26,716 bases of DNA from a virus. The DNA is taken from positions 1-26,716 of the IMG/VR virus record IMGVR_UViG_3300040960_001940. One strand, given 5' to 3'. Numbering within the stretch: position 1 is the first letter of the stretch; the number at the start of each line of letters is the position of its first letter. The notes under the pieces are model-generated. The model had not been told where the DNA came from, did not search any database, and saw nothing but the letters and a program-made list of their open reading frames with translations. A program made the position numbers and the translations under genes. This document shows positions 993 through 26,133 of the stretch, one piece after another.

Positions 993-1136
993 ATGGCAAA
1001 GCGACCTAGTTTTACTGGCGGGCAAAAGATTGAGTCCAAACCCAAATCTACCCTTCAGGGTCAAGGGAAGAACACAAAATATGCTGCCACATCTCGTAAT
1101 AATGCTCGCAAACCTTATCGTGGTCAGGGCAAGTAA
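993..1136 (+). CDS. Small basic protein of unknown function (47 aa)
   Basis: The ORF runs from ATG 993 to TAA 1134-1136. The 47-aa product is strongly basic (12 Lys or Arg, only 1 Glu) and rich in Gly, Asn, Gln and Ser, with a C-terminal stretch SRNNARKPYRGQGK. It is probably disordered and could bind nucleic acid or an acidic partner, but that is inference from composition only. Proteins with the same TxxGQxK...SRN..KPYRGQGK pattern are familiar to me from marine T4-like cyanophages as conserved hypothetical proteins. Its stop overlaps the next start in a TAATG junction (1134-1138), typical of translational coupling. Confidence 0.65.
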   Translation: MAKRPSFTGGQKIESKPKSTLQGQGKNTKYAATSRNNARKPYRGQGK

Positions 1137-1379
1137 TGAAAGTCTTTGATGAATACTCACAAATTCATCAAGATGACCTTTGGGTTTATAATAAACTTAT
1201 TTTAAGTCGGAAACTTGTGGACCTTCTGGAGTCCCTGTACCCAAGTTTCCGACTTTTTTATTGTCAGACCTTGTATGAATTTTATGGGTATGGGGCGCTT
1301 TACTCGGAAAGAACCGATTTTAACCGTAAGAGGCATACAAAATCACGGAAAAGCTCTCTATAAATGGGAAAAATGGTAA
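1136..1379 (+). pseudogene. Frameshifted remnant of a cyanophage hypothetical gene (two -1 shifts)
   Basis: The conserved-looking protein is split over three frames. Frame A (ATG 1136) gives MKVFDEYSQIHQDDLWVYNK and LILSRK up to 1213. The -1 frame then gives TCGPSGVPVPKF up to 1248. A further -1 frame gives SDFFIVRPCMNFMGMGRF and on to LYKWEKW, stopping at TAA 1377-1379. Joined, this is about 81 aa and reads like a single protein; from memory, full-length cyanophage relatives with the VYNKL, CGPxG, IVRP and MGMGR motifs are clearly longer, so an internal or C-terminal part is probably also missing. Adding one A to AAA 1211-1213 and one T to TTT 1246-1248 would restore one open frame. The unbroken frame A ORF continues to 1363, but after residue 26 it is out-of-frame sequence, so I do not take it as a real 75-aa protein. 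A sequencing or assembly error is the main alternative. Confidence 0.65.
1204..1259 (+). terminator. Intrinsic terminator-like hairpin inside the broken gene
   Basis: AAGTCGGAAACTTG (1204-1217) and CAAGTTTCCGACTT (1242-1255) are perfect reverse complements, giving a 14-bp stem. The 24-base loop can form a small inner stem (GGAC 1219-1222 with GTCC 1231-1234). The downstream arm runs directly into a T-run (T at 1254-1259, then ATT). This is the layout of a Rho-independent terminator on the + strand; the minus strand lacks a T-run after the stem. It would separate the genes at 63-1136 from those at 1488 onwards. The long loop weakens the call. Confidence 0.55.
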
Positions 1380-1380
1380 A

Positions 1381-1388
1381 TATAAGTA
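1381..1388 (+). promoter_or_regulatory. Possible variant late promoter (TATAAGTA)
   Basis: TATAAGTA differs by one base from the T4 late core TATAAATA and sits just after the broken gene and terminator-like hairpin, about 100 bases before the gene at 1488. Position favours a promoter here, but the mismatch makes it weak evidence. The rest of 1380-1487 holds no convincing gene: a 14-codon ORF (ATG 1390 to TGA 1434) is too short to support. Confidence 0.25.
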
Positions 1389-1434
1389 TATGGAAGATCC
1401 AGATTACTTAAGAAGGGGATTTTTAATAGACTGA

Positions 1435-7000: not shown

Positions 7001-10000
7001 GTGATAAAAATATCTGGGGGTAATGGAACTGGAGCAAAAGCAGAAGTAGAACTTGAAAAATATGTCCATTTTTCAACTTTTAATGCTTCTGAAGTGGATC
7101 TTGTAAATGATAGTATCGGTTTTTCTACTTATCACAAGTTTAAAGATGGAGAATCCATTCAATATGAAACTTTGGGTCAAGTAGCTATTGCTGGTTTATC
7201 CACATCTTCATATTATTTTGTATCTCTTGTTGATAGTTACAATGTGAAGTTGCATAAATCCAAATCTGATGCTTTAGATAATAGAAATCCAATCAATCTG
7301 TATCAAATAGGAACTGGAAAGCACAATTTAAAGTCCACAAATAGAAAAAATAGAGTAAAAAGAGTAAATATTTCCCAAAATGGATATGGTTATGAGCAAA
7401 AATACAGATCATGTCCATCTTCTGGCATTAGTACATATAAAGATTTGATTGAAATCAAAGATCATGGTTATCAAAGTGGAGAAATAGTCACCTATAATCC
7501 AAAAATTGCTCCAGTTGCTGGTCTTTCATCTGGAACGGACTATTATGTACTAAAAAATGATGATGATTCTTTCAGATTATGCGCTATTACAGGAATTTCA
7601 ACACAAAAAGACATTTTTTATAAGCAGAAAAAGTATATTAACTTTGATGGATTTATAGAGGGCGATCATACGTTCAAATATCAGGATATTGTAGTCACAA
7701 TTGAGGGAAGATCTTCATTAAGTCAGGAAGATCTTAATGCTGATACAAATGCTAGAATAAGACCCATTTTTAGTGGTGAAATTGATAGTGTTTTTATCGA
7801 AAATGGTGGTCAAAAGTACGGATCTCAAGTTTCAAACTTTGTTTCTCAACCAAATATTCAGATTTTACAGGGCAGAAATGCTAGATTAAAACCCATTATT
7901 AAAAATGGCGAGATTATTTCTGTAATAATCCAAGATCCAGGAAAAGATTATTATTCCACACCAGATGTTTCTGTAATTGGTACTGGAGTTGGTGCAAACT
8001 TGATTCCAATCGTAAAAGATGGTTATATTTCTGATATTATAATCGAAAATCCTGGAATCGGATATCAATCTGAAGGTACTCAAGCACTTGTAGTCAACAG
8101 AGGAATCTCTGGTAGTATTTCTGCAAATATTCAGACTTGGAGAATAAATCTCGTTGAAAGATATGTTTCGACTGGACTGATTTCACCAGAAGATTCTTTC
8201 CTGTATGAAGGAAAAACAAAATCAAGAGGAATTCAATATGTTCATACATATGCACCAAGAAAACTTAGAGAGATTTCTCTTGCTAGTAGATTCTTAAATG
8301 GTGTTGAAGTTTTTAATCCAGATTTAGAACTTATTAATGGAGTTGAATCAGTTTCTTTAGCACATTCTCCAATTCTTGGATGGGCATATGATGGAAATCC
8401 AATCTATGGTCCATACGCTTATTCATCACAGACTGGTGGTAGAATAATCCAGATGACTTCAGGATATGAATTAAGAACTGATTTAAACAAAGACAAAAAT
8501 AGACCAAATCTAGTAGATTTTCCACCAGGATTTTTTATTGAAGATTATACATTCACTGGAAATGGTACATTGGATAAACATAATGGAAGATATTGTGTTA
8601 CTCCAGATTATCCAAATGGTGTTTATGCGTATTTCTGTACTGTAAACACTGAGGTTGATTCAAATGGATTATTTAAATCATATAGAAGACCAGTTTTCCC
8701 ATATGTTATTGGGAATGCATATATTTCTTCTCCTACAGAGTTCAACTTTAAGTCAACATCAACTTTAGAATACTTTGATCTAAACACTTCTGATTTGACT
8801 AGAAATACTGCTCCATACAGCTTGCTGGCAGATACTATTAACTATCCATATTTAAAATATGATAAAGCATATAGAAATCAAAACGCAATCGTAAAATCTA
8901 CAAAGTTTGGATCAGTAACTAGTGTTGGTATTGTTACTGGTGGTTATAACTACAAAGTTGGAGATAGAGTTGTATTTGACGGACAAATTGATACATTTAA
9001 AGCAAAAGGTATGGTTAGCAAAGTAAAGGGGGTAGATGTTGAATCTATCAGTTTACTTCACTCCGAATCGCAAAAATGCAATATTATAAAAACCAGTAAA
9101 GTATTCACTGCATTTACTGAAGACCCACATGGTTATACTCCTGGGGAGAGTGTAACATTAACATTCAATAATGAACTATTAACAACAACTGAGATAAATG
9201 TTAAGTTTAATATAATAACATTAAAGCAAAATCTTGATATTCCTTCAGTAACTGGAATTGTTACTCATATTTCTGTTGCAACTATTTTTGATTTGATTTA
9301 TCCAAATGATGTTTATGAACTTAATAATGAAAAAATAAAGGTTTTAAGAGTAGAATCTAACAAGTCTAGATTATTAGTTCAAAGGGAATATGATGGTTCT
9401 ATTGGATCAACTCACCAAGTATCTTCAGGATTTATTGAAGTTCCAAGAAAGTTCACCTTTAGTCCACAAAATTCTTTCATAACAACAAGTTTTACAAACT
9501 CTCTAGAAAATCCGTTATATTTTATCCCCTCAGAAAATGTTGGATTGAATACAGTAACAATCAATATAAGCAATCATCCTCTTATTACTGGTGATTTACT
9601 AGATTATTCAAATGAAGGTGGAACTTCTATAACCGTAGAAAATGAAAACGGATCATTCTTACTTTCTGATGTTGAACAGATTTATGCTGTAAAAATAAAC
9701 AGCAATCTGATTGGTTTGACAACTGTATCTTCTGGAATCACCACAGATCCACAACTATTGTTATTCACTAATGTTGGACTGGGTTCTGTTCACAGTCTAA
9801 CTCCAAGATATTCAAATGTTTTAGAGTGTGATATTTCAGATGATAGAGTATTAGTTACTACAAGTACTCCACATGGTCTTTCTGTTGGCGATAGATTTGA
9901 TCTTTATGTAGAATCGGGCATTTCTACAACTTATAAAGTAGAATATAACAAACGAAACAGAGCTGTTATCATTGGAAGAAGAGATTTTGAGTCTTCTGAT

Positions 10001-25905: not shown

Positions 25906-26133
25906 ATGGACAGATTAAAAGTAAAAGATCAATCCCATTTATATAGAGATAGTAATAGTAATGCTATTATTAATACTGATAAAGGTCAGTATGATCTCTA
26001 TATAAAAAGGAGAGAGAAACGGAAAAGTGAAAACAGTAAAATTGAGCACATCGAAAATGATTTGAATAGGTTAAAATCGGACATTAATGAAATAAAATCA
26101 TTATTAATGGAGATTAAGAATGGATCCCTCTGA
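25906..26133 (+). CDS. Small coiled-coil protein (75 aa)
   Basis: The 75-aa protein begins with a short polar region (residues 1-35) and continues with a charged helix, KIEHIENDLNRLKSDINEIK (45-64) and LLMEIKNG, whose Ile and Leu residues at heptad-like spacing (I46, I49, L53, L56, I60, I63, L66, L67, I70) indicate a coiled coil. It probably forms an oligomer, but the partner and role are unknown. The start follows the 2573-aa gene stop by one base (TAGTATG) and its end overlaps the next gene by 14 bases, so it belongs to the same late transcript. It could be an assembly factor for the large protein upstream, by position only. Confidence 0.65.
   Translation: MDRLKVKDQSHLYRDSNSNAIINTDKGQYDLYIKRREKRKSENSKIEHIENDLNRLKSDINEIKSLLMEIKNGSL

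Follow-up and report, generated by a model that had tools for sequence, protein, structure and literature searches.

A conserved hairpin inside a decaying gene of T4-like cyanophages and its probable remodelling by a deletion and a template switch

Quasipalindrome template-switch mutation was worked out by Ripley in 1982 in yeast CYC1 and phage T4 rIIB, the latter being among the two first cases, and was later studied in E. coli thyA, according to the account in PMC7202029. In this type of mutation an imperfect repeat is made perfect by arm copying, and the locus described here appears to be alike. It differs from the known cases in being natural, in coming from an environmental cyanophage, and in combining a family-recurrent hairpin with an adjoining probable slippage deletion. 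Template switching is also described as creating and maintaining RNA hairpins (Monttinen and Loytynoja 2022, PMC8794818). That account shares with our locus the compensatory multi-base stem change, and it mentions an asymmetric event that breaks a stem whose pairing a later switch restores, but its cases are RNA genes, whereas ours overlaps a phage coding sequence. Arm homogenisation that alters codons has been reported for template switching at inverted repeats in yeast coding genes (PMC8604942); unlike the case in our window, the abstract of that study makes no mention of a hairpin kept across a gene family. The mutation type is already known, and we found no description of a coding-embedded hairpin of this kind.

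PeSL promoter-terminator stem-loops are intergenic and pair a stem-loop terminator with an adjacent early promoter. They act as shuffling joints in T4-type phages (Arbiol 2010, Comeau 2014), as outlined in PMC4503421. Our hairpin resembles them as a stem-loop that may serve as a recombination joint in T4-like myoviruses, but it lies inside an open reading frame and does not form a PeSL cassette; a simple scan for a promoter beside it gave no sigma-70-like site within 1255-1619. Among the structured RNAs of cyanophages, manA, wcaG and PhotoRC-II have been described, manA in what may be the 5' UTRs of metabolic genes (PMC2864571). These are alike in being conserved RNA structures of cyanophages and marine metagenomes. 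The survey, in the portion treating cyanophage RNAs, names these three and not the present hairpin. An Rfam scan of seven sources, which included these families by the accessions given there, returned no match at gathering score; the hits for L071 were all far below the gathering scores. A literature search that covered few subscription papers found no cyanophage hairpin in coding sequence like this one.

The window, that is, the whole stretch of DNA that was analysed, is a 26,716-base virus record with T4-like cyanophage genes. The hairpin lies in a remnant of a PHROG 3577 gene with its start codon at 1136 and an out-of-frame C-terminal piece that stops at 1432-1434 (Table 1); gp25 (Pfam GPW_gp25) starts at 1759. 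The assignment to PHROG 3577 comes from the relatives L011 (1.8e-57), L013 (3.5e-52) and L010 (2.4e-20, over residues 1-66 of its 82-residue product), the window's broken copy itself lying outside that profile scan. PHROG 3577 is a family of unknown function; its members L011 and L013 had no match in Pfam, and an AlphaFold model of the full-length protein, with a mean pLDDT of 59.6, was set aside. The preliminary description had limited the gene to 1136-1379, which is too short, as relatives have about 190-200 residues and a 3' piece, with coordinates taken by eye from the sequence, is recognisable to 1434. Two breaks interrupt the reading frame between 1136 and 1363. Internal pieces are already gone from the copy in the window's clade, and the C-terminal piece is in another frame; the gene in this lineage is already a decaying remnant. 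A frame break was also seen in S-SRM01 (L006 934-1100, MW015081), shortly 3' of an intact hairpin and with the PHROG 3577 match in two pieces; a sequencing error may be the cause, as may genuine decay. The annotated gene start of this phage falls within the hairpin.

Table 1. Features of the hairpin locus, in window coordinates
Feature	Position	Strand	Basis
PHROG 3577 gene remnant	1136..1434	+	tblastn, translations of relatives, PHROG 3577 matches of L011, L013 and L010
Crossover interval of the recombinants L097/L098	1184..1220	.	window coordinates
Hairpin left arm AAGTCGGAAACTTG, probable template of the arm copy	1204..1217	+	inverted-repeat search
Single ACTTG left by the 10-nt deletion between two ACTTG (first frame break)	1213..1217	+	L010 alignment
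Hairpin loop, 24 nt	1218..1241	+	inverted-repeat search
18-nt exact reverse complement of the L010 left arm AAGTCGGAAACTTGGGTA	1238..1255	+	minus-strand match
Hairpin right arm CAAGTTTCCGACTT	1242..1255	+	inverted-repeat search
Putatively template-switched GTTT replacing ancestral AT (one substitution and two inserted bases; second frame break)	1245..1248	+	
T tail; the first two T are the last two stem bases	1254..1259	+	tail codons conserved in relatives

The perfect 14-bp inverted repeat noted earlier is present, and the window contains no longer perfect one when loops of 3-79 nt are allowed. The best arms in 30 first-order Markov sequences as long as the window measured 10-13 bp, so that 14 was never attained. 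It was also correctly noted that the protein motifs are spread over three frames. Each frame break had been attributed to the loss of one base, and the two together to the loss of one A:T pair from a 15-bp stem with A4/T4 arms. Neither statement agrees with the relatives, which were collected by a search with the window gene read through its breaks (480 in IMG/VR, of which the best 80 were kept). Among these best 80 of 480, the closest relative that is open through the hairpin is L010, whose contig is 98.9% identical to the window over 10 kb. L010 has ten more bases on the left side, and two fewer bases and a different base on the right, so its arms differ from those of the window in a way other than supposed. 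In the right arm AAAT has become AAGTTT, the window having CAAGTTTCC where L010 reads CAAATCC. The AAA and TTT triplets are mirrored because the arms are complementary, and neither triplet marks a 1-nt indel. The hairpin recurs in most of the relatives examined, which the preliminary description, having none to compare, could not show, and its A4/T4 ancestor with a 15-bp stem is wrong.

The window and the contig of L010 (L090) differ by 88 substitutions and three indels in 10 kb, and two of the indels and one substitution fall within the hairpin. The remaining indel is one of 9 nt with flanking substitutions (window 109, L090 2110), near the start of the gene at 63-842. Dense clusters of substitutions relative to L090 (average about 0.9%) were found at 8194-8254 and 8718-8793, within an ORF of 4163 aa, and may reflect local exchange.

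The derived form is common to the window, to L012/L092 (identical over the shared 1970 bases) and to L018/L091 (3 differences in 3215), although these three contigs possibly represent one population. Four further contigs of 91-93% identity (L097, L098, L103, L104) have the right arm of L010, which is therefore regarded as ancestral. They carry their own 22-nt deletion, which removed most of the loop, and are uninformative on the polarity of the left-arm change since this part is deleted there; the left arm proper at 1204-1217 is identical in these four and in L090. In protein relatives the residues LGY stand at the bases deleted from the window. The motif SRxLGYxCGP...VPxxDF is in frame at 79 of 84 loci, always with one spacing (79/79); these loci comprise four fetched phage loci and the best 80 of 480 relatives, picked by likeness to the window protein. 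The five mismatches are the derived broken copies L012 and L018 and three loci with residue differences (L007, L049, L061). The right arms of the outgroup and the motif spacing of the relatives therefore indicate that both changes are derived in the window's clade.

These observations bear on the suggestion that one A and one T were dropped from homopolymers by a correlated sequencing or assembly error. Short AAA and TTT runs do lie at both breaks. However, the derived form occurs in three separate contigs (the window, L091 and L092), which makes an assembly error appear unlikely, and what separates this form from L010 is one change of 10 nt and one of +2 with a substitution, rather than 1-nt homopolymer errors. 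The number of assemblies and the nature of the changes both contradict the error, and we give it very little credence.

A history of two steps would account for the derived form. Ten nucleotides were probably lost by slippage between the ACTTG direct repeats in the decaying PHROG 3577 gene of this T4-like cyanophage lineage. Synthesis of the right arm would have been templated by the left arm, changing CCCAAATCCGACTT to CCCAAGTTTCCGACTT, and the stem would thereby have become perfect. One template switch would suffice for the substitution and both inserted bases. The deletion and the switch may have been separate or coupled steps. The copying of one arm onto the other that had been proposed for both breaks is supported for the right arm and fails for the left, where the 10-nt deletion between ACTTG repeats is untemplated.

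The quasipalindrome of L010 has an 8-bp stem and a 3x1 internal loop followed by at least 7 further pairs. An exact template for the right-arm change exists within 40 nt. The locus thus presents what is expected of quasipalindrome mutation, namely an imperfect ancestral repeat, an exact complement with improved pairing, and ancestry of the imperfect form. The predicted folding energies are -26.5 kcal/mol for L010, -13.8 with the deletion only, -36.3 with the arm copy only and -22.8 for the window. The strand switch itself we infer from this footprint.

In a dead gene, a slippage deletion could also have been joined independently by a 2-nt insertion and a substitution that matched the other arm by chance, and the low frame constraint and several other deletions in the remnant of this clade would allow for that. 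We enumerated the 7105 sequences that one 2-nt insertion and one substitution can produce from the ancestral right arm, and a single one, which is the observed sequence, is a perfect 14-bp complement. Correction of quasipalindromes is furthermore a known hotspot mechanism, as treated in PMC7202029. Independent mutations are accordingly improbable, though somewhat less so than a sequencing error. The deletion and the switch could have occurred in either order. A possible snap-back primer, the helix TACCCAA/TTGGGTA, shrinks from 7 bp to about 3 bp through the deletion, and this favours the switch first. Stem repair, in turn, favours the deletion first.

The hairpin is not confined to the window's clade. 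For the homologous 99-nt segment in 51 distinct sequences, the folding energy was -33.1 +/- 4.7 kcal/mol. Synonymous recoding with local codon usage (200 recodings each) gave a mean z of -4.7, and for 46 of the 51 no more than 2 of 200 recodings were as stable; the weakest were the ACG-2014f records, with z of -1.6 and -1.2. A scan along the gene, for which 20 of 47 eligible loci were used, gave a mean z of -4.7 at the hairpin and -1.3 to +0.3 at ten other offsets. The 13 stem pairs were paired in 92.2% of 663 cells, and in 54.1% and 61.4% when the alignment was slid by one column.

Cells changed on both sides numbered 43 versus 17.6 in shuffles, and the covariation score was 0.213 versus 0.139 (0/500 shuffles as high), although relatedness alone can raise such scores. 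Two stricter measures were within the range of the shuffles, namely the pairs with a double change (5 versus 3.4, a value reached by 70/500 shuffles) and the further pair types (13 versus 11.9, reached by 133/500), and the sequences are related. The pair 36-72, which joins a Leu codon and a Pro codon at their third positions, is A-U in 27 sequences and G-C in 16. On a tree built without the hairpin columns from 48 of the 51 loci (L006, L010 and L043 were dropped as short), 12 of its 15 changes were double, nine of them between A-U and G-C. At the pair 31-76, where residues are altered on both sides, there are 21 A-U, 18 G-C, 3 G-U and 9 unpaired cases. Here covariation extends into the amino acids, Val occurring with Pro and Lys or Ile with Ser, with exceptions. 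The RNAalifold consensus was weak (-2.4 kcal/mol), probably because the registers of the inner stem slide between lineages.

Codon choice agrees with the hairpin. In the same 48 loci as the tree, Arg is encoded by CGG in 40 of 42 cases within the hairpin and in 18 of 381 elsewhere in the same genes, and GAC is found in 38/43 versus 142/593. The tail codons behave likewise, with TTT at 45/45 (elsewhere 407/489), TAT at 46/47 (310/404) and ATT at 43/46 (321/629). Stem codons varied less than the remainder of the gene (Mann-Whitney p 0.001), but the loop codons, judged by their mean, did so too (excess 0.22, compared with 0.27 in the stem and 0.07 in the rest).

The hairpin could in principle be a by-product of the protein, with the codons of SRxLG and VPKxDF complementary by accident, and both motifs are indeed conserved in the protein. 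Against this, synonymous recoding strongly weakens the hairpin, and this null led us to reject the by-product. The rare Arg codon CGG in 40/42 and the occurrence of both A-U (27) and G-C (16) where two synonymous third positions pair argue in the same direction. So does L089, which has other residues in both arms and keeps the pairing; its arms differ in several bases from those of L087 and still pair, the two genes not being close (32.7% differences elsewhere). An accidental origin is very hard to reconcile with these data. Programmed ribosomal frameshifting or bypassing in the manner of T4 gene 60, as described in PMC3014915, was suggested by the position of the hairpin between frames. It was rejected since 79 of 84 relatives are open across the hairpin without a shift. 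The derived form would moreover need two shifts, and its downstream part is itself truncated, which leaves this explanation a negligible probability.

Taken together, the history of a deletion and a template switch and the existence of a conserved hairpin have, in our estimate, a probability of about 0.82.

A covariance model of the hairpin matched only the homologous place in the same and other records and detected no second copy. A weak match elsewhere in S-SRM01 (20.4 bits, E 0.48) was taken as chance. The complete phages S-SM2, P-TIM68 and Bellamy gave no match to the model, and no clear hairpin was seen by eye in BUCT-ZZ01, a distant relative of the gene. L007, L049 and L083 share a different 13-bp hairpin (AGGCATCTCTGTG/TACAGGGGTGCCT in L007), which is shifted inwards and has no T tail.

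Other strong in-frame hairpins exist in the analysed stretch, 9 of 829 segments having a z below -4. As a control, the family of the gene at 25906-26133 gave mean z values of -1.5 and -1.8, with 17/39 and 14/41 segments below -2. This gene of 75 aa contains a 13-bp inverted repeat (arms 25938-25950 and 25994-26006) with a z of about -5 to -8 in its own clade. The small gene upstream of the remnant (phrog_3252, 820-990) also has an in-frame hairpin, at 906-938, which in the window copy is followed by TTTTATGAT. This gene was recognised upstream at 28 of the 51 loci, 26 of them distinct, and 24 of these 26 segments had a z below -2 upon synonymous recoding (mean -3.7). Its stems differ between lineages and mostly lack a T tail.

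In the transcript, the PHROG 3577 hairpin might act as an intrinsic terminator or attenuator, a stem followed by a U-rich tail, that would end the transcription of the upstream small genes and would be retained after loss of the protein. Like intrinsic terminators, it has a stable stem directly 5' of a T-rich tail, that is, of a U-rich tract in the RNA. Unlike them, it has a long structured loop, overlaps about codons 23-43 and was not listed in the window, L010 or L104 by a stock terminator scan (loops 3-8). The loop is 24 nt in the window, and in L098 and L104 a 6-nt loop is combined with an internal loop in the stem; a short loop together with an uninterrupted stem was thus not found. By a custom scan rule, a hairpin with a T tail was present at the homologous place in 15 of 20 chosen loci, a set that included loci known to lack the hairpin; the rule picks out further places as well, the upstream gene among them. 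The five exceptions are the two ACG-2014f records (L008 and L009), S-T4 (L007), L049 and L083. In L008 a canonical terminator lies between the upstream gene and the PHROG 3577 gene, with an 11-bp stem, a 5-nt loop and six T, two of them paired, and the custom scan lists the same upstream terminator in L009. S-T4, L049 and L083 have only weaker candidates upstream, none of them equally clear.

The reading as a terminator is favoured by the conserved tail, by the persistence of the hairpin in a gene under decay, and by the canonical terminator that ACG-2014f has in its place. Across the remnant clade, no position of the arms and tail has changed (0/39), as compared with 7.6, 9.4 and 10.5% elsewhere in the remnant (Fisher test, p = 0.09, 0.06 and 0.03 in three comparisons that are not independent). 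The arms and tail therefore survive marginally better, which falls short of proving selection after the death of the gene. The recurrent hairpin of the upstream gene, which mostly has no T tail, speaks against a terminator, and the conserved tail codons could also serve an outer helix. On these sequence comparisons, the hairpin most resembles an intrinsic terminator incorporated at the beginning of the gene, a tentative reading to which we assign somewhat less than even odds. The sequence ATAAATA is the core of T4 late promoters. It occurs at 1730, just 5' of gp25; the window holds 7 matches, compared with 17.6 expected by chance.

A crossover between phage lineages also falls at the hairpin. 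L097 and L098 are mosaics with 1 difference between them in the compared stretch. Upstream of the hairpin, L098 has 3/1191 differences from L090 and 72/1191 from L104, whereas downstream it has 0/1157 from L104 and 73/1149 from L090. The crossover, a single event, falls in a stretch of about 36 nt that includes the left arm. Because these contigs were picked up through sequence identical to the gene start, which biases toward upstream identity, the use of the left arm as a joint is no more than suggestive.

With two deletions, an arm copy and a crossover in the same 50-70 nt, the hairpin looks fragile. It could matter as DNA, forming a cruciform or hairpin at which replication stalls and which favours recombination and the exchange of modules, with pairing kept partly by template switching and with no RNA function. 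The mostly double changes at the pair 36-72 would agree with this, as would the weak strand preference of mismatches, G.T exceeding A.C by only 29 to 17. On the other hand, the tail codons of the + strand are conserved, ACG-2014f has a canonical terminator in place of the hairpin, and the single crossover is a single event. We regard a purely DNA-level role as unlikely, if worth considering. More doubtful still is a combined function, in which the coding-embedded hairpin would be a module boundary (an RNA terminator and a DNA joint) that is kept by covariation across many T4-like cyanophages, is arm-matched by template switching and outlives its gene.

The locus appears to offer a natural and polarised case of a kind of mutation that was originally analysed in yeast and phage T4. 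Its consequence would be traceable, since a stem that the deletion would weaken is made perfect by one arm copy. A hairpin hidden in a protein gene seems to constrain codons and even residues, persists in the remnant of that gene and coincides with a crossover between lineages. Whether selection or template switching itself maintains such stems may thus be open to testing with environmental phage sequences in large numbers.
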